23,754 bases of DNA from NCBI GenBank assembly GCA_003614735.1, contig KZ992652.1, positions 1 to 23,754 on the forward strand, given 5' to 3'. The position numbers and the translations under genes were made by a program. Under the pieces are notes generated by a model. The model made no database searches and was not told the DNA's origin. It saw only the letters and a program-made list of their open reading frames with translations. Every line of letters starts with the position of its first letter. The stretch's first letter is position 1. Of this stretch, positions 3,499 to 23,742 are shown one piece after another. This DNA comes from Thamnocephalis sphaerospora. Taxonomy: Eukaryota; Zoopagomycota; Zoopagomycetes; Zoopagales; Sigmoideomycetaceae.

Positions 3499-4463
3499 TC
3501 ATGTACCGTTTGAGTGACCATCTGCATCTCGGCTAACTGGCATGGTGCTATGGCCATTAAAGTCACGGCAAACGATAACTGGCCGACGACTGCAGCCAGC
3601 ACTGTATACTGCTGCATTCGTGTTACTCTTGGGCGTGTGCTGGCATATCATCTTGCTTATTATCGTGGCGTTGATGACATCTGGTTGGCAGCAACGGCGG
3701 TTAACGTCTGCAAACGGTTGCAAGGGTCACGCAACAGCTACTCACTGTCCAGGCCGTAGATGAACGCCTCGTAGTCTGGAACCAACCGAAGTAGGACGAC
3801 AACAGCTGTGAAGATTGACGATATGGTAACCAGAAACGACGAGAAAAGACCCTCATGGTAAAGCTTCAAATAGAGCGACGAGCTAATCCTCTTTCCCAGC
3901 GTCCGCCTCAGCACACGCAGATAAAGGCCGGAAAGCGTGATATTGGTGACCATGTCAGCGGCAAACTTGGACATCGACCATATCGTGTTGGTTCCCATCC
4001 AGCAAGAGTGGCTATCGTCCGTGTGCACGGAAAAGGCAGGATAGATTGCAGCCCCAACTGCAATGTTGATGAGCACTAATAAGAATCCAACGTACGCTAA
4101 CCAGGTGCGCTGCATCCAGGTATAGTAGGCACGGATAAACAGGATGGCGGTGATGGCGGGAACGCCGAGAGCCATTATCATGGTGTTCATCACCGCAAAC
4201 GCTGTGCAGTTGGCGAAGCCTGGCCAGGCGCGCTGAGGCAGCGCGTACATGGTGGTTGCGCAACCTACTAGGTTGGGCACCACGTTGAACAGAGGCATGA
4301 GCAGCCGCGGCCCAGTATCCCGGCGGCGTTTATACAAAAAGACAATGCTAGTATAGAGGTTGCTCGAAAAGCGCCACATGGTGGCGGTGAGCAACATCGT
4401 CGTCAGACAGTCCAGCGGACCAAAAGGCACGACCAACAGCGTGTGATCATTGGCGAGCTGCAT
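3499..4463 (-). CDS. Seven-transmembrane GPCR-like protein, paralogue A
   Basis: Exon 1 is 4463-3746 and exon 2 is 3680-3499 (about 299 aa), split by a 65-nt GTGAGT...CAG phase-1 intron. Approximate helices: TM1 15-44, TM2 55-75, TM3 86-111, TM4 121-143, TM5 162-185, TM6 205-227, and TM7 233-250, interrupted by the intron at residue 240 (YGLD then NVINATII). Cys86 at the top of TM3 and Cys154 in the TM4-TM5 loop (SHSCWMGTNT) sit where GPCRs carry their conserved disulfide. Other shared marks are RAYY at the end of TM3, K166-x3-D170-x3-N174 in TM5 and EGL before TM6. The start was chosen because MQLANDH aligns with MRLADDH and MSLSNDH of the paralogues; in-frame ATGs upstream (to 4838) exist. 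It is a candidate plasma-membrane receptor with unknown ligand. The end of the 60-aa tail is uncertain. Confidence 0.82.
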
Positions 4464-5063
4464 GAGACTAGTTGCGACAGATACTACAACACGCTCGCCT
4501 GCAAGGCAACGGGCACGGCGACAGAACAGTAGAGCGAAAGAATACCAAGCAAGAAGGAGGTAAGGGCCCCGCAGGCTGTGCAAATAGATAAGGCAATCAT
4601 ACGCTTTTGTAGTATACCCATGCTGCGGCGCCAGGTAGTTTGCGCTAACGGCGTTGCCAACCCGGGATATGAGCATGACACCAACGACCAATGGTCGCCC
4701 GCAATGAGTGTTGCAGGCCGAGTTCGGAAGACGCTTGCTCTGTCCGCTTGGCAGCACACTAACTGCAGTCTGTGCAACCATTCGCGGGATTGGAATCTTG
4801 CTGTGCTGTGGATGGCAAAATGGCAATATAAACGCCATTTTTGCCTAGGGAGGGTGGCACACCGGCTACCAGGCTTTTTCAATCCAGCTCTGCGCACTGC
4901 AGACACCAACAGTGGCAGTTATAAACAAGGTAGGTTCGCTGAAACGCCTGTTGATGATACGGTATTACAACATACCCATTATGTTAATGGTTACATTGCA
5001 AGACGGAGCAACAAGCGCATGCGGCAAGCGCATGATGCAGACACCAGGCTGGGGTATGTCATT
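4464..5063. other. Spacer between 7TM genes A and B
   Basis: This 600-nt gap should hold the promoter of gene A and the 3' UTR of gene B (both on the minus strand). An A/T element (TTTATATT read on the minus strand, about 4824-4834) lies some 360 nt upstream of the chosen ATG, too far to call a TATA box with confidence. The frame of gene A stays open upstream to 4838, so part of this gap may be coding if a more distal ATG is used. Confidence 0.35.
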
Positions 5064-6191
5064 TTAGCGCATTATGCTATGCCGCTCGTGCACAGATCGT
5101 ATTTCGCAAACATGCTCAGATGCACTATGGCGAGGCTCGGTGCTGATGTATATGGATTCCCAGCGCATTCGGCTGACTGAAATGTCAACGTCAACTCCAG
5201 CAAATGAGTTTTCGATCTGGCTATGGGCAGTGTGCACGCCGTTGATGCTGCTGTGGAGATTCCAGCTGGACTGCACCTCCCCGGGGCTATTTCTTGCATC
5301 TTCGGGCACGGTTGCTGGTCTTTTGCGACCATCAGCATATTTAGCCCCTAGTGCCTGTTTGCTGCTGTGACGCTGATATAGCATCCGACCAATAATCGTA
5401 GTGTTGATGACAACTGAGCGTAGCAAGACGGTTAATTAAGAGGGTAGCCACTAGGCGTGATGCGCGCACTCACTGTCAAGGCCGTAGATGAACGGCTCGT
5501 AGTCGGGGGCCAGGCGGAGAAAGACAAAGATTGCTGTAATCACCGTCGACAGAATGACAAGAAAGGCGGAAACAAACCCTTCCCGGTAGAGCTCCTGGTA
5601 GAGCGCCGCGCTGAAGCCGCTATGGCGTGTCTGACTTAACACGCGTAGGTACAAACCCGACAGCACCACATTGGTGATTATGTCAGCGGCAAACTTGGCC
5701 ATCGACCATAGCGTGTTGGTTCCCATCCAGCAGGAGTGGCTTTCGTCCATGTGCACCGAGAAGGAAGGGTAGATTGCGACCCCGACCATGAAATTGACAA
5801 ACACCAGAAAGCTGCCCAGGAGAAGCATCCAGGTGCGTCGCATCCAGATGTGATAGGCACGCACAAACAGAATAGTGGTAATGGCGGTGACGCCGAGCGC
5901 CATCACGGCTGTGTTCAGCACAGCGAGCACCATGCAGTCAGCGAAGCCCGGCCAGGCACGCTGCCCTGTCGCGTACACCGACGTAATCACGCCAATCAGA
6001 TTGGGCACCACATTGAGCAACGGTATAAGCAGGCGCGCGCCCGAAGCGTTGCGACGCTCACAGAGAAGAATAACACTGTTGAGTAGATTATTAAAGAAGA
6101 TCCAAGAAATGCCGGTGATCGCGATGGTGGTCACTATATCCAGCGGGCCAAAAGGCACGTATAGCAAGTTGTGGTCGTCGGCAAGCCTCAT
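5064..6191 (-). CDS. Seven-transmembrane GPCR-like protein, paralogue B
   Basis: Exon 1 is 6191-5474 (718 nt, identical in length to genes A and C) and exon 2 is 5413-5064. A 60-nt GTGAGT...CAG intron splits TM7 in phase 1 (YGLD then IVINTTIIGRML). The product is about 355 aa. The seven helices align without gaps to paralogues A and C over the first 239 residues. Cys86 (FADCMV) and Cys154 (SHSCWMGTNT) are kept, as are RAYH in place of RAYY, K-x3-D-x3-N in TM5, and EG before TM6. The ATG chosen (MRLADDHNLL) is the first in its open frame, which supports the same start in A. The 116-aa tail is hydrophilic and shares only its first 12 or so residues with the other copies. Likely a membrane receptor; ligand and coupling are unknown. 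Confidence 0.85.
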
Positions 6192-7637
6192 GGGCAAAGA
6201 AGGTAGAGTGCGGTAGAGTTTAGGCTGGTCGTCACATATAGCGCGCTGTGATGGCGTGGCGTCGAATGCTAATGCAAAGTACCTTACAAAACGACGGTCT
6301 CGGCTATGAACAAGCAAGGGGGAATAGGACAGGAGCGGGGAACGAGAAGCGCTGATGGCAGACTGTAACGGCGCCTATGTAGGGCAACGGGCGCGCCGAC
6401 AATTCGCCCGCCAAAGATCACCCAATTTGGCATCCTGGCATTGACGCAATGACGCGGCAAGCGAACCTCCAACGTGCGACAGTGTGGAAGGCGAGCGAAT
6501 GGCCAGTCAGTCAGCAGTGGTGTGGCCTAGCGTGCCACATCAGGCAGGCGCTCATGCCAAAGCCAGGCCAGTCAAAGATGGCCGCAATGGCACAGGTTGC
6601 GTGGCCAGCAGGCAGTCTAAGTGAGCGACTAGCCCGGATTTCCCGACGCGGCGCACGCAGACAACTAGGCATTGTGCGTAACCGCCAAAGGAACACAAAG
6701 CGTCCGCCCCAGTTCAAGCGCTAGTACAAGTGCACCAGGTCAGTGCTGTGATACGTGTGCGACAAAGTGTATTCGTCAAAGCCGGCGTGCAAACGCGGGC
6801 AAATGTACATCTTACAGACGGACAAAGCAAAGAAAGCTGCTCTAGGCTGTCCGCATTCCAAAGCCGATGGCAAGATGCTGCGCACACGTTGAGAAGGGCT
6901 TATATGCAAGCGCTACATCCTTGGCCCGCCGTCTACGCTGTTTTCACGTACAAGACGGCGTCTGGCATAATCCTGACACAGCTTGCTTCAACAAAGGGGC
7001 CGGCAATAGGTGGACCAACAGTGCAGCAGCTTATTGGGCAGACACTATCTAGGTATAATGCCATCAAGCATCAGTGGCAGATTGGCGTGCACTGGCCGGT
7101 GCTACCCGTAATATGACGATGTAGCACGGTTCGTTGTCACCTTGGCCGGCCCTGTTTCTCGAATTATTCACAGAGTCCTGTGCAAAACCGGCAGCAATTG
7201 ACCAGCGCTAAAGCGGCAGGGCCCCCGTATTCCGACTGCTCATCACGATGCGACGTGTCTGTATATGTCCGTCGAAACAGTGTCCACTCAAAAGACTTGG
7301 TCTGGTGTACCATTGAGTAATTAATTGCCCAATATTCTGGGCACCCTGATCGTCAGACAAGTACAAGGCACGCTATCATGCGAGGAATATTCACACGCCC
7401 GCGCTGGCAGCTGGTATACTGTACACCCAATGTTTTGCGTTCGACGCCATTTCAGCTCCCATTGTACTGTAGGCTTGCGGGGTTTGGCTCTGCTCACTTG
7501 CGCGGATCGCAGCATCAGGCAGTATGCACAGCCAATTCGGATATGGATAATTTAGTAGCAAACATTGCAGCGGGCGCACCAGTGTAAAATATGCTTAATT
7601 GGCACTGATCATTAGTACAATAGCAATAATAGTACCG
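6192..7637. other. Gene-poor spacer between 7TM genes B and C
   Basis: About 1.4 kb. It must hold the promoter of gene B; a TATA-like CTATATG on the minus strand lies about 45-50 nt upstream of its ATG (near 6235-6243). It also holds the 3' UTR of gene C. Short open frames occur on both strands, but none shows TM helices, known motifs or similarity to the 7TM proteins, so I see no decayed fifth copy here. Confidence 0.45.
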
Positions 7638-8861
7638 CTACTGTATGCGAATCGCTACTAGCTGCGGAAAGCGGCGAGTTTGTGCAGGCACAGAACGCGC
7701 GGCCGCGGGATGCAGCATACTGCTGTTCGCTGCCGGGTCTGCGTGTGTTGTTGGTAGACGATGCAAAGCGGCATCTAAAGTGATGCAGCATTCAGCGTCA
7801 TCGCAATCGTATTCCGCCGACACCCGGGAGTTGCGTGGGCAAACTGCGCCATTGGAGAGCGTCCAGCTAGATCTGGTGTGGGTGTGATGGCTATGGAAAG
7901 ACTGCGATGCCATCTCTGATACTTCCTTTGTACACTGGGAGACAGACGCGATGCCAGCATTGATGTGCCCCGTGGCCATTAATTGTCGCCTGCTGCAGAC
8001 CTGCGGCGCTTCTTTTTCGTTGCCTTTAGAGATGCGCTGGCATATCATTCTGTTGATTATGGTGGCATTTATGACACCTAGTGCGGGAAAAGGGATGGTT
8101 GGCATCGGTAAAGCTTACGCACACGCTCCTTGTTGGCACTTACAGTCAAGGCCGTAGATGAATGGCTCGTAGCCCGGGACTAGCCGAAGCAGGACGATGA
8201 CAGCGGTGATGATCACCGACACAATGACCAGAAACGTGGATACAAGCCCTTCGCGATAGAGCTCGCGGTAGAGCGACGCGCTGAAGCCATTCCGAAGCAT
8301 CTGTCGCAGAACGCGCAGGTAAAGGCCGGACAGTATGATGTTGGTGATCATGTCAGAGGTGAACTTGGCGGTGGACCACATTGTGTTTGTCCCCATCCAG
8401 CATGATTCGCTCTCGTCTGCATATATCGAAAGCGCCGGGTAGAGTGTCACGCCGACTATAGCATTGACAAATACAAGCAGGAAGCCCGTACGCGCAAGCC
8501 AAGCCTGCCGCATCCAGGTGTAGTAGGCGCGAATAAACAGAATGGCGGTGATAGAGGGAGTGCCAAGGGCCATCACACTCATGTTGAGTAACCCAAGCAC
8601 ATTACAATTGGCAAACCCTGGCCGGACACGCTGCCCCAGCGCGTAGATGGATGTGATGCCACCAACCAGATTGGGTATGACATTGAACATGGGCATAAGC
8701 CGCCGCGGGCCCACATCCTGGCGCCGCCTGTACAGGAAGCGGGTGCCCTCGTAGAGATTGCTGAGAAACACCCAGCAGGTGATTGTGAGCAGCAGCGTGG
8801 TCATACTGTCCAGTATGCCAAACTGCACGGTCAGCACCGTGTGGTCGTTGGAGAGCGACAT
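7638..8861 (-). CDS. Seven-transmembrane GPCR-like protein, paralogue C
   Basis: Exon 1 is 8861-8144 (718 nt) and exon 2 is 8077-7638. The 66-nt intron (GTAAGT...CACTAG) lies at the same phase-1 position in TM7 as in the other copies (YGLD then CVINATIINRMI). The product is about 385 aa. The start MSLSNDHTVL is the first ATG of the frame and fixes the family N terminus. By eye it is well over half identical to gene A over 239 residues. It keeps the TM3 Cys (FANCNV), the TM4-TM5 loop Cys (ESCWMGTNT), RAYY, K-x3-D-x3-N and EGL. The tail (146 aa) is rich in Ser, Thr, His and Cys and unlike those of A, B and D beyond the first residues. The real end could differ if a further intron exists. Confidence 0.85.
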
Positions 8862-10612
8862 GAGAAATGGCTGAGACGGTAGTCGACAGTTGATTCCGCC
8901 AGTGCACTATTACAATATGAATATACGTGCTCGAAGTTGCCTCGCCGGCGAGGAAGCGATGCAGTGCTGAAGCGGTGAGAGGAGAAGGGTGATGGAGCAC
9001 CTACAGGTCGAGAGTGGAGAACGTCAAAGGGCGATACGGGGCGGGTATCGGCCCATGGCCCATACAACCGGGCATATTTGTTCTCTCATGGAGTTTTGAG
9101 CTGGAACATCAACGTGATGCAGCGCCGCTTTGTTCGCGTTACTGAGGTTGTACACTGTACTGCAGCGCCTCTAGAACGGGTCAGTTGCCTGACCATTAAA
9201 GCCGCAGACACGACACTCCGTATTTGGTAGATGACTGCCGCGTGATACAACAGCAGCTGAGTGCAGCGCTAATGACAGCGGTGACTCCACCACCGACGGC
9301 CCAGAACGTAGTGGAAGTGTTGGCGCAGCGGCCGAATGCAGTGCCGGCCAAGCAAGCGCAGCGCTATGCGGCCGTGGCCTGCCTGGCCTTGTTCTCACGC
9401 CAAAACGCCCGTGTTGCTACCAACAGACGGTATCAGGCGCGGGTGTATGAGGTGGTCGCTACACATGACAGCCAAGCACCAAGTGTATCGGCAGCTGGCA
9501 CAGTAACAGGGAGTAGATGACACTTGGTTGCGAAGGTCAAGTCCCTGCTGCCATTTTGGGCCATGTCTGTGATGCCAGCCTGATGTGTTGGCATTCGCAG
9601 GCTGACCGTAAAAGTGCACCAAGGTTTGCAAATGCGGTCGCCGTATTAGCTGTTCGCCTTCTGACTGGCGGTGACGAAGCTTATGCCATTGATTGGATGC
9701 CACCCACTCAAGCCGAATGAGTACACAATAAAACCGGTTAAGCTGGTAGGCGCTGCGGAACCACTAGCACCAAAAAGGACGCGGCTTGGCAATTACGCCT
9801 GCCCCCATGCACTTGGTCTGGGCGGCTAGACACACCCGTGGCGTTTACTGGATGTTCTGCAGTCTGCCACTTTTTACAAACTATTCAGTGCAACGTAGGT
9901 TGCATCATATGCATATGCAATCTACTGTTGTGCCGAGAGGTAATAGGCGGTACGCAGCGGCCATAAAACGCTGGATATAGTCCATTGCAGGCAAACCGTG
10001 GCGCAGCAACTGAGACAAGTGCTGCCAGGATGACCTCGTGTAACGCCGAGCCCAAGGCAGTGGTGGCATACGACGGCTTTACCGGCATTTATCCCTGCAG
10101 ACAAGCCGAAAACCGCCAAGCCTGCAAAGGCCGAGTCACGCGCTGCCTGTCAGGCCAGTTCTGACTTTTGCCGCATAGCGTATCGCTTAAAATCGTACGT
10201 AGCGGACTCACCGCAGGCGATGCAGATCACAACAGTCGGTACCTGCATAGTGTGGATGGCGCCGATTCAAGTCGTCTGCTACGCGTATCGTCCGTTTTTG
10301 TCCACGACGGCTCCGGAAGTGGCCAGTCGGCGTCAATGTACCTGCACTCTCCAAACAGACAGCAGGCTACAGTGCTATTTGCATCGTACAATGCGTAGCT
10401 CACTGCACGACCGGGCTAGATGGGCGCTACGACGCGTGGCGCTCTGTATCATTGCTTAGCCCGGGACGACCGCGAGTATCAGGCCGGACAGGAAGCCAAT
10501 TGTCGCAAAGATCAGTGTCACTGGCTCACACAGTGCTCCAGTCGATGGTTGTCGCACTGTGTGTGCCAACAAATCTACACAGGCTACTATTCTATCCAGG
10601 ATTGCACCACTA
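8862..10612. other. Gene-poor spacer between 7TM genes C and D
   Basis: About 1.75 kb. It should contain the promoter of gene C; an A/T-rich CGTATATTCATATTG element on the minus strand lies about 50-65 nt upstream of its ATG (near 8911-8925). It also contains the 3' UTR of gene D. The plus-strand stretch 9224-9520 is open for 98 codons but has no ATG start and no recognisable motif. I see no RNA gene or mobile element. Confidence 0.4.
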
Positions 10613-11878
10613 TTACCAGGACGATGACACAGGCTGGAGCGCTGGTTCGCTTGCAATTTCCTCCCCAGCAGCAATTGTCATGTTATCCTGGCCTGATGTA
10701 GCACGACATTGTGAACGATAATGCCGCGAATCCTGCGCGGCAATACCGTCATGTAGCACGCTGCTCTCGTCGTTTTCCGTGCGCTGTTGCCTACTGACTT
10801 GCGACGCGTACATTGCGTCCACCGTCAATGTCGTCCATTCTTCAAAGCAGACATCCGACCGAGCATGTCGACCATCCACATCCAAACGCTCAGCTTCAAA
10901 GCGCGTGCGCAATAGTTCAGGTCTACTGTCGTCCTCGTGACTGATTTTTTTATCGTCACTGCTGGTATTGGAGTGTAAGCGTACTCTGGAGCTCTTGGCA
11001 GCTGTAGATTGCAGTTGCTGGGTCAAGAGCGTATTCACAATCACCTCTAGTGGATGCGTAAAGCGACAGAGGCAAGTTGGTCAGCACAGCTCCCCAATAT
11101 TGTGTGGCCTTTGATGGCATCTGTACCTACGTTCCAGCCCATAAGCCATCACGTCGTGGCGTGGAATGATGTTGGTCAGCATGCCGATGCCGATAAAAAT
11201 GTTGATGGCTGTGGCAGAAAGCATGTAGATGAGTCCTTCCTTGGCAATGGATCGCAGATAGCTGACGCCATTGGCACGACGCGCCATTTGCCAAACTACC
11301 CAGAGGAACGATCCCGTCAGATAGGTGTTGGCAAGAACATCTAGCGCCACGCGCAAGTATAGCTGACGCTCGGAAAACTCAATCATGCAACGCCGAGTGA
11401 CCGGCTCATAGCGAACTTCCGCAAGGACTTCAATATCCACGGTAAATGCAATCATGACGCACAGCAGCAGACAGCCGACGCCGAGCATCCGGCGCGCGCG
11501 GTTGCGTGCATAGTAGGCTTTAAGCCATAGGTTGCAGTATGCCGCAATATTGCCGACGGCAAACAACAGCACCACAATGTTTAGGGAAATGGCACACACA
11601 TGGAAGCTGTGATCCGGATCGATGTCAGTCGACAGCGGCACCACATATCGCAACAGATAAACTAGAATGCCCAGTAGGAAAAAAACCGACTGCACGCAGC
11701 CAAACTTGGTGGCCAGCGTGTTGTGCGCGCTGTACAGCCGCAGACTCACTTCTGCGTTTCGGAAAAACACTGCTCCAAAAATGGTTGCGGAAAGAAGGAT
11801 GGAAAAGACCCGCTGCTGGTCTCTGTGCCCAAGTGCGTGTTGCTCCTCTCTCGGCAGCGCCAGGTTCGGCGGGCTCAT
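10613..11878 (-). CDS. Divergent seven-transmembrane GPCR-like protein, paralogue D
   Basis: Exon 1 is 11878-11131 (748 nt) and exon 2 is 11046-10613. An 84-nt GTAGGT...TAG intron is placed as in A-C, phase 1 within TM7 (AYGLE then QVIVNTLLTQQL). The product is about 393 aa. The start MSPPNLAL is the first ATG in the open frame; the frame is open to 12055 but without an earlier ATG. Overall sequence is far from A-C, yet the skeleton is the same: Cys95 at the start of TM3 (FHVCAIS), Cys164 in the TM4-TM5 loop (TRRCMIEF), KAYY after TM3, D180-x3-N184 in TM5 and KEGL before TM6. The 144-aa tail is hydrophilic and rich in Ser, Asp and Glu (for example NTSSDDKKISHEDD), like a phosphorylatable receptor tail. 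It is an older duplicate or a sister family member. Confidence 0.8.
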
Positions 11879-14366: not shown

Positions 14367-15155
14367 CTATGGGTAACCGCCACGGTGGTGTGCACCTAGA
14401 TCCTGCTTGAAGGGATCCTGGTTGCCGCGGTGCGCAAACGGATAGCCGGGCGTGTAGTTGTCCTCCTCGTTACCGAAGCGCAGCTCCTCGAAGCGCCGGT
14501 TGCGGCCCTTGCGAGTCCAGCGCGAGTAAGCGGCCAGGCCAGCGCAGAGACCGACAAAGCAGCCAAACACGATACCAACCACCGCCATGGTGGGCAGACC
14601 ACCGCCGCTGCTGGAATCGACCGTCTTGGCCGCCTTGACCTTTTGCTCGCCGCTGGTCACTGCTTCGGCGCTTTCGTCGACGCCCGAGCGACCGGCCGTC
14701 GGAGCCGTTTTAGTGACGGTGGCAGCCGGTGCGGTCGACGTGATAACACGGCCCGGAGTGGCCGCGGAAGGAGCCGACACACCCGTGGGCGTTTCCTTAC
14801 TGCTGGCGCCGCTATCCTTGCTGTTGCTAGATCCGCTGTCCTTACTATTGCCAGATCCGCTATCCTTGCCGCTGGATCCGCTATCCTTGCTGCTGCCGGA
14901 TCCGCTATCCTTACCGCCACTGCTAGATCCGCTGTCTTTGCTGGATCCGCTGTCTTTGCTGGATCCGCTATCGCCGCTGCTACCACTGTCGGCGGCAGCG
15001 GCAGAGCCTCCGGCGCTGCTGCCACCAGAGCTGCTGCTGCCGGAGCCGCTGTCCAGCTGCACCAAGTCATCGCTTAGCGCATCCGACTGCAACGCAGCCG
15101 AGGCGACCAAGAGCGCCGCGGCGACAAAGAAAAAGAACTTTTTGGAGACGAGCAT
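14367..15155 (-). CDS. Ser/Gly/Asp-repeat single-pass surface protein (mucin-like, candidate wall sensor)
   Basis: Single exon, 262 aa, ATG at 15155. Residues 1-26 form a classic signal peptide (KK then FFFFVAAALLVASAA, Ala-rich end). Residues of about 35-120 are a low-complexity tract built on KDSGSS/KDSGSG units with Gly-Ser spacers, a likely O-glycosylated stalk. A Thr/Pro/Ala-rich linker follows. One TM helix lies at about 190-211 (MAVVGIVFGCFVGLCAGLAAY), then a stop-transfer basic cluster (RKGRNRR) and a 45-residue cytoplasmic tail with aromatic and acidic residues (EEDNYTPGYPF). This topology, signal-Ser stalk-TM-short tail, is that of fungal wall-stress sensors (Mid2/Wsc style) and mucin-like proteins, but no WSC or other cysteine-rich head is present, so the name is only a functional guess. 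The stalk repeats are also visible as DNA repeats carrying GGATCC. Confidence 0.85.
   Translation of the reverse strand: MLVSKKFFFFVAAALLVASAALQSDALSDDLVQLDSGSGSSSSGGSSAGGSAAAADSGSSGDSGSSKDSGSSKDSGSSSGGKDSGSGSSKDSGSSGKDSGSGNSKDSGSSNSKDSGASSKETPTGVSAPSAATPGRVITSTAPAATVTKTAPTAGRSGVDESAEAVTSGEQKVKAAKTVDSSSGGGLPTMAVVGIVFGCFVGLCAGLAAYSRWTRKGRNRRFEELRFGNEEDNYTPGYPFAHRGNQDPFKQDLGAHHRGGYP
14811..14976 (-). repeat. Coding tandem repeats of the Ser/Asp/Gly stalk
   Basis: Degenerate units around GGATCCGCTATCCTTG / GATCCGCTGTCTTTGCTG (plus strand) recur about eight times. Two neighbouring 18-nt units starting near 14937 are identical. They encode the KDSGSS motifs of the surface protein and are likely prone to unit gain and loss, giving length variation of the stalk between strains (inference). 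Confidence 0.75.
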
Positions 15156-22524: not shown

Positions 22525-23742
22525 CTATAGCACAGTGGCCGCCGAAACTGGCCGCCGAAGTGTTGCTTTGCTGTGTACCGGGCGGCATTGATGACACCAC
22601 CAGGCATCCAATGGCACTGTGCTCAGCACCGGCGTCACACAGCCTATATGGTAGAAGCGCATGCAATTCTCGCAGGCTACCATATGCTCGGTATGCTCTT
22701 TGCCGCCACAGTGGAAACATCCACATGCACGGTATCCTATGGTTGGTTCACTCTTGCATTCCATGCAGTGGAATTTGTCATGAACTGCTGCTGCTGCTGC
22801 TGCTGCTGTTGGCGCAACGGTCATGCGACTTGACCGTGGCTTTTCTGCATAGCTTACTAGAGCTGATACTGTAGCGTTGGCCGGTGCTAACTCGGGGACT
22901 GTTGCCAGCGGTATCGGTAAAGCGGGAGCCAAAGGTGGGCTTGGTGGCAGCGAAGCTGTGCGAGAAAGCGCTGTTGGCGTGTATCTGGCTGGCACCATCT
23001 GCGGCTTGGCTGAATACCACTCGGTAGCTATGACGGTGGTGTTGGGACCCCATGCGCAGGGTGCCATCTGAGGTTCTTTGGGCATCATGTTCTGCGGCTG
23101 TGAAATCGGTCAGACACGCAGTTTACTTGCCCATCGCCAGGTGCAGCTTACCTTTACTAATGGCCATGCATTCGGCTGGGCTGTAGCCATGAGCGTGTCA
23201 GCCGGGGCAGACCCTGACACGCAGTTTAGAAAGTATTGCTTTTGAGTGTTGCTGTGACCATGGGCGCGTCTTGCAGTGTTCTGCTGCTGAGCCGCCATCA
23301 CCTCTCTCTCTGCCTTGATGCCACTCCATACTTGAAGATATGATCTGGCCACTACCCCAGCCAACCGTACTGAGGCATCCTCAGCTGACACCTCTCGCCA
23401 GTTGCGCGTGATCAGCGGTCGCTGCGCGTGAGGCGTGTACTTTGGCGGCGCTGACATCTGATCGATATACAGCATTTTTGCCACTGCAGCAACGGCGGCA
23501 GTAGCGGGCACTCGTTGAAAGATCACGTACAGCGACTCTCCCGACGGAATGCTGCTTAGTCGACGTTTGTCGGTGGCCTCCAGGAAACGACCGTGGTAAA
23601 GCAGAAACAGCGGCACGTGTGGCGACAGGCCAAGTATTGCCGGCACACAACTGTAAAGCTGCGCAACACTCATACTGGAGCATCCGCTCACAGTTGCATA
23701 CAACATGTTCTGCGGGACTAGGATCCGTAATAGCGTGGTCAT
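22525..23742 (-). CDS. UHRF-like protein: N-terminal ubiquitin-like domain plus PHD finger, no SRA or RING
   Basis: Exon 1 is 23742-23152 and exon 2 is 23097-22525, with a 54-nt GTAAGC...CACAG phase-0 intron, giving 387 aa. Residues 1-78 have a ubiquitin-like (beta-grasp) pattern: LLRILVPQ strand, ATVSG turn, LLYHGRFLE (compare ubiquitin LIFAGKQLE), SSIPSGESLYVIF. A basic/Gln-rich region follows (about 85-180), then a Pro/Ala-rich linker with an Ala run (about 293-301, from a GCA/GCT repeat at 22785-22808). Residues 308-368 form a PHD finger with ligands C324, C327, C339, C342, H347, C350, C365 and C368, preceded by C308, C311 and C322. The signature CGCFHCGG ... CVTPVLSTVP closely follows the UHRF1 PHD and pre-PHD. 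At one pre-PHD position where UHRF1 has Cys, Tyr319 is found. A chromatin reader is the likely role. The frame is open at the window edge, so a longer N terminus is possible. Confidence 0.85.

Follow-up and report, generated by a model that had tools for sequence, protein, structure and literature searches.

Fungal G-protein coupled receptors (GPCRs) have been arranged in 17 classes, defined over 1,357 species by Liu 2025 (PMC12842992) and also used in a FEMS 2026 review (PMC13308352), which counts 105 GPCRs of all classes in Fusarium graminearum and 43 in Neurospora crassa. Pth11-like receptors (class XIV) form a large, unevenly expanded family in fungi living on or in hosts. They are described as restricted to Pezizomycotina, Ste2-like receptors (class D) are reported to be confined to Ascomycota, and the DUF6534 proteins of Basidiomycota are seven-transmembrane (7TM) proteins proposed as a new fungal GPCR group of untested function (Liu 2025, PMC12842992). 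Rhodopsin-type receptors are found in chytrids and Blastocladiomycota (Krishnan 2012, PMC3251606). Here, a stretch of 23,754 nucleotides (nt) from the Zoopagales fungus Thamnocephalis sphaerospora was analysed over its whole length (the window; contig KZ992652.1, positions 1 to 23,754, referred to as C228 among the contigs of the genome), in which four genes on the minus strand, A to D, encode candidate 7TM receptors. The evidence set out below makes it probable that A-D belong to an undescribed GPCR-type receptor family expanded in one fungal lineage.

The first-pass annotation, made from the letters of the window, described A, B and C as aligning without gaps over 239 codons of first exons of 718 nt, and coordinates, lengths and alignment all bear this out; identities over these codons are 146/239 between A and B, 154/239 between A and C, and 142/239 between B and C. 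A genome search with exon 1 of B returned A at an E-value of 3.8e-98 and C at 1.6e-92. The proportion of non-synonymous differences among the three (pN) is 0.23-0.26 versus 0.58-0.62 for synonymous differences (pS), and the coding sequences look constrained. D, which had been described as having the common framework in strongly diverged form, is indeed only 20-21% identical to A-C, and all four genes have a phase-1 intron at the same place in helix 7. A genome search with D matched a paralogue on contig C498 (E 1.2e-11) and, more weakly, A (1.4e-5) and C (2.7e-5), and the reverse search with the C498 paralogue returned D at 6.1e-12. Chance similarity of D was rejected on the basis of these matches in both directions together with the common intron place and phase. 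The family profile matches D at E 6.6e-44, a value obtained with D in the profile's starting alignment.

The family extends well beyond the window. Its members were collected from the genome (14,455,036 bases in 594 contigs) by searches with eight members and by a profile run over the fetched loci, and the counts are lower bounds: at least 105 open reading frames (ORFs), comprising 87 near-complete members (covering 80% or more of the profile), which are spread over 54 contigs, and 18 partial ORFs from about 12 places. Counts given below for 87 members exclude the partial ORFs, some of which are ended by contig ends (C61:42913, C359, C405:1 and C439) and some possibly split by introns rather than broken (C67, C91 and C322). 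Fragments on C151, C264, C276, C373, C382 and C405:14831, and a weak match on C254, lie outside the collection. The array of four genes proposed initially is therefore real as regards the genes and their strand, but the family numbers about 87-100 genes rather than four. Members tend to lie close together, with 26 neighbour pairs less than 5 kb apart, whereas random placement, repeated 1,000 times, gave 2.6 on average and at most 9, and 23 of the 26 pairs are on the same strand. In the 20 closest pairs, some of which share members, dN/dS (non-synonymous over synonymous rate) is 0.07-0.39, and the genes thus look to be held by purifying selection. Stops or split frames are present in the copies at C458, C405:1-330, C529 and C389, which suggests that the family is subject to birth-and-death turnover.

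AlphaFold models were examined for D and for P0003, a spliced paralogue 57-59% identical to A-C. Both show seven helices, as had been claimed from hydrophobicity, and a hairpin in the second extracellular loop (ECL2); the core of the P0003 model has a predicted local distance difference test score (pLDDT) of about 89, and the last helix of D is truncated where the exon ends. Similarity to the fold of a transporter or an enzyme had been named in advance as grounds for abandoning a receptor identity, and the comparison was run: among the matches listed in Foldseek searches against PDB, 50 of 50 for P0003 are GPCRs at E <= 0.001, and all 50 for D are GPCRs at weaker values of 0.006-0.06, although one of the D rows (8ikh) bears only the title 'human receptor with G proteins'. 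Neither set of 50 rows contains a transporter or an enzyme, and such a fold was rejected. The best E-value in the Foldseek searches is 4.9e-5, sequence identity in the structural alignments is 4-19%, and the rows also include the class C receptors GABA-B and GPR156. By predicted fold, the family resembles class A GPCRs (EP3, SSTR, opioid and apelin receptors) in its seven-helix arrangement, ECL2 hairpin and external N-terminus. Seven helices, an N-terminus outside with the C-terminus inside and a match to solved GPCR folds are predicted, and a cysteine pair is present, as in members of the structural GPCR superfamily.

The cysteine pair comprises Cys86, at the start of helix 3, and Cys154, in the second strand of ECL2, both of which are present in 85 of the 87 members (the exceptions are C183:22908 and C443). 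Together with the models, this conservation points to a disulphide tying the top of helix 3 to the ECL2 hairpin. The 28 residues from position 86 to 113 are without gaps in 87/87 members and end in a K/R-A-Y motif, with lysine or arginine at 111 in 84/87, alanine in 76/87 and tyrosine at 113 in 85/87. Position 111 is 25 residues after position 86, the same distance as separates C3.25 from R3.50 in class A receptors. The pair linking transmembrane helix 3 (TM3) to ECL2 and the basic residue 25 positions past the TM3 cysteine are thus further likenesses to class A receptors; conversely, K/R-A-Y occupies the place of D/ERY at the end of TM3, the D/ERY, NPxxY and CWxP motifs of that class were not seen on inspection of A-D, P0003 and P0007, and the family has no PF00001 match. 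Intracellular loops carry a mean of 1.9-2.4 lysine plus arginine residues and extracellular loops 0.1-0.4, with more inside than outside in 86/87 members, a charge distribution which suggests that the N-terminus is outside in those 86. Column entropy is greater in the outer than in the inner halves of all six helices tested (mean 2.55 vs 2.10), a contrast attained by 1 of 64 sign flips and 1 of 10,000 residue permutations; the same direction is seen in 6/6 helices among 14 members of the A-C type (4 of 10,000 permutations). A bundle that is variable outside and conserved inside is the pattern expected of a repertoire with different ligands and one common signalling face. The member at C443:7532-9454 is an outlier that lacks the cysteine pair and has an open frame of 641 residues with a long tail on the cytoplasmic side. 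The searches gave one copy of it, which may represent either an old branch or another 7TM family.

Sequence comparison beyond the genome returned few relatives. Searches of protein databases, by a method that needs five-residue words in common and may miss distant relatives, found only Thamnocephalis and JGI metagenome proteins: a single-sequence search to E 10 gave 33 matches, the weakest at 2.1e-58, and an alignment-based search gave only five, fewer than the single-sequence search, perhaps owing to the word limit. A profile search of solved structures at E <= 10 found no sequence relative. Against the 24,736 models of Pfam, A-D at E <= 10 matched only unrelated names at 0.22-1.3, with no match to PF00001 (7tm_1). 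For the 50 members of an alignment from which two incomplete loci (3/53 rows) had been excluded, nothing credible was found at E <= 1 among the 25 families listed of 27, the best matches (Lys_export at 8.6e-4 in 1/50 and TMEM128 at 0.003 in 4/50) being taken as chance. Four further full-length proteins (P0003, P0007, P0038 and P0006) gave nothing credible at E <= 0.1 (DUF1345 at 0.026 for P0006), and PF00001 was not matched by P0003 or P0007 at that threshold. The fungal GPCR classes are represented by particular Pfam models, and the domains of classes I-XVII were not matched by A-D, the 50 aligned members or these four proteins, although the family may have a remote tie to one of them. The earlier statements that the family is lineage-specific and that it corresponds to no named GPCR class are in keeping with these searches. 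Compared with the described systems, it is like the Pth11 receptors in its size and uneven expansion and unlike them in lacking a Pfam match; comparison with Ste2 gave a high root-mean-square deviation and no sequence match, and the family differs from the DUF6534 proteins by the absence of DUF6534 from the Pfam results listed and by phylum. The main text of Liu 2025 (PMC12842992) contains neither 'Zoopag' nor 'Thamnocephalis', and searches of the open-licence literature on Zoopagales, Zoopagomycotina or Zoopagomycota and GPCRs, supplementary files aside, yielded no description of the family.

In a tree of 94 sequences over 239 columns, A, B and C form one group at support 0.64, and their sister is a gene on C427 (0.99); the group around A-C also includes the C121 cluster and genes on C309, C65, C236 and C325. 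The branch of D is much deeper and is separated from A-C by genes of other contigs, the support for its exact node being 0.23, and the window therefore holds two adjoining lineages as opposed to the products of one fourfold duplication. The idea that D arose directly as a sister copy of A-C was accordingly rejected for a deep separate lineage, with the exact node support being low. The proposal of two ages of duplication fits the tree, in which A-C form a young local group and D a deep branch. Seven JGI metagenome proteins are spread over several subgroups, P0005 with the A-C type (0.42) and P0038 beside a gene on C70 (0.99), so that some of the family's diversification is probably older than the split from their source fungus. 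At C427:1382-3903 and C148:3194-5827, as in the window, a deep-lineage member adjoins an A-C-type or related member, in these two cases within about 1 kb; these mixed pairs are possible relics of an ancestral mixed cluster.

Could the family instead be a very diverged branch of a named fungal class, whether cAMP-receptor-like, Git3-like, Rhodopsin-like, Glutamate-like or DUF6534? The predicted fold is that of a GPCR, and arginine or lysine in the first intracellular loop, a TM3 tyrosine and cysteines in the first and second extracellular loops are listed as linking cAMP and Rhodopsin-type fungal receptors (Krishnan 2012, PMC3251606), features to which those of the family are similar; moreover, Rhodopsin and Glutamate homologues are reported as enriched in early-diverging fungi (Liu 2025, PMC12842992). 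Since there is no credible match among the Pfam models, however, and since matches to PF00001, PF00003 and STE3 in the genome lie on contigs in which no family members were found or fall under the cut-off, this explanation is considered unlikely. Insect-type 7TM ligand-gated channels, transporters or other 7TM proteins working without G-proteins would resemble the family simply as seven-helix bundles. Coupling to G-proteins is itself predicted, the prediction rests on 43 aligned sequences, and helical bundles readily yield middling structural scores, all of which leave some room for such proteins; insect-type channels have the N-terminus inside, though, and the charge distribution suggests the opposite orientation in 86/87 members, and this possibility appears very improbable. 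Photoreceptors or pumps of the microbial rhodopsin type are scarcely credible. Helix 7 is without lysine in P0003 (residues 229-259), B, C and D, the single lysine of A is at the cytoplasmic end, and lysine occurs in the first half of helix 7 in only 3/87 members (the second half was inspected in A-D and P0003). An ECL2 hairpin with a cysteine pair is a GPCR trait, and microbial rhodopsins are absent from the 50 rows that Foldseek listed for P0003. An opsin identity was likewise rejected, given that the retinal-type helix-7 lysine is absent in A-D and P0003.

Several observations weigh against an undescribed GPCR-type family, or against parts of that reading. Among the families listed, VIA-align ties GPCRs and microbial rhodopsins for P0003. 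A survey in eLife 2025 applied a Foldseek cut-off of 1e-9 against AlphaFold DB (PMC12716839), a bar that the family would fail with its best value of 4.9e-5 against PDB. D is not among the matches listed in the genome search with B, and tree support is 0.64 for the grouping of A, B and C and 0.42 for the placement of P0005. In 18 independent recent pairs, the contrast between outer and inner halves is small (pN 0.163 vs 0.139), and the random placements behind the clustering comparison were made on contigs of simulated, not real, length and counted pairs by start-to-start distances under 6 kb, not by the real gaps.

The gene models in the window are predictions from sequence, with second exons ended at the first in-frame stop. 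Gene A (minus strand, as are B-D) has its first exon at 3746..4463 (718 nt, helices 1 to mid-7, with the phase-1 donor GTGAGT), an intron of 65 nt within helix 7 at 3681..3745, and a second exon at 3499..3680 encoding the end of helix 7 (VINATIISKM) and a cytoplasmic tail. The corresponding elements of B are at 5474..6191 (718 nt), 5414..5473 (60 nt) and 5064..5413 (VINTTIIGRM and tail), and those of C at 8144..8861 (718 nt), 8078..8143 (66 nt) and 7638..8077 (VINATIINRM and tail), the first exon being counted up to the GT donor in each case. The splice model of A-C is supported because their second exons start with homologous sequence. D, the deep lineage of the same family, has a first exon of 748 nt at 11131..11878, an 84-nt intron at 11047..11130 and a second exon at 10613..11046 (QVIVNTLL and tail). 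Among the 87 members, 30 have a phase-1 donor directly after codon 239, 15 have a TG|GT donor, 11 have another arrangement (including D, with a one-codon alignment shift) and 31 read through without an intron, indicating that the helix-7 intron has been lost, gained or shifted within the family.

Protein records THASP1DRAFT_23953, 23954 and 23955 of T. sphaerospora match A, B and C. The public models of these genes each lack part of the seven-helix core: that of A (P0004) begins 28 residues late and omits two stretches of the conserved exon, that of B (P0001) begins 96 residues late, and that of C (P0002) continues into the intron and is missing the last part of helix 7. Records P0002, P0003 and P0010 bear a clipped automatic name starting 'G-protein coupled r', so a few members, C included, had already been flagged by automatic annotation. 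Adjoining the array, at 1055-2875 on the plus strand, is a spliced gene for a multi-helix membrane protein, one exon of which weakly matches DMT_YdcZ (E 5.4e-4, under the cut-off); it is perhaps a transporter of the nucleotide-sugar or triose-phosphate type. A PHD-finger protein is encoded at 22528-23097 (minus strand, E 8.8e-8), the sole Pfam match above cut-off among the window neighbours scanned. The product of 14370-15155 (minus strand) is rich in Ser, Gly and Asp and has a hydrophobic N-terminal stretch, followed later by a single transmembrane-like one; it had no match in the Pfam scan and resembles surface proteins of the cell-wall or sensor type.

Two G-alpha genes were found in the genome, with one further weak match under the cut-off; both are on C35, within about 12 kb of each other (C35:32067-43435). 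Searches of the genome with known receptor models gave no match over cut-off for 7tm_1, one over and three below for 7tm_3, and one just under for STE3 (26.5 of 29.2 bits), and, compared with these three classes, the family is much the largest set of candidate receptors. As members of an undescribed GPCR-type family, A-D would be cell-surface receptors with the N-terminus outside and, judging from the conserved pair and the model, a disulphide joining the top of helix 3 to the ECL2 hairpin. Diverse ligands would bind in the outer, variable half of the helix bundle, and contacts with a small common set of G-alpha proteins would be made by the inner, conserved half together with the basic loops. 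Local duplication and divergence would have built the repertoire, and such a repertoire most likely serves to sense chemical cues from the environment, from partners or from host fungi. The genes, which are presumably expressed, may therefore be regarded as encoding candidate chemoreceptors.

To our knowledge, how obligate Zoopagales mycoparasites find and recognise their hosts is not understood. T. sphaerospora is among the single-cell genomes of uncultured, mostly biotrophic mycoparasites, called obligate, of Ahrendt 2018 (PMC6784888), a paper whose main text uses neither 'receptor' nor 'GPCR'. It can tentatively be proposed, at somewhat less than even odds, that the family is an eighteenth fungal GPCR class, restricted to Thamnocephalis and near relatives, in which about 90 diverse receptors feeding two G-alpha proteins would serve an obligate mycoparasite in host recognition and growth towards the host. 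Some 90 receptors in 14.5 Mb would be among the larger GPCR-type repertoires in fungi, and catalogues compiled from known Pfam domains or from hidden Markov models of known classes would probably miss them. The family would show that an early-diverging fungus has enlarged its receptor repertoire independently of Pth11, and through it host sensing becomes directly testable.

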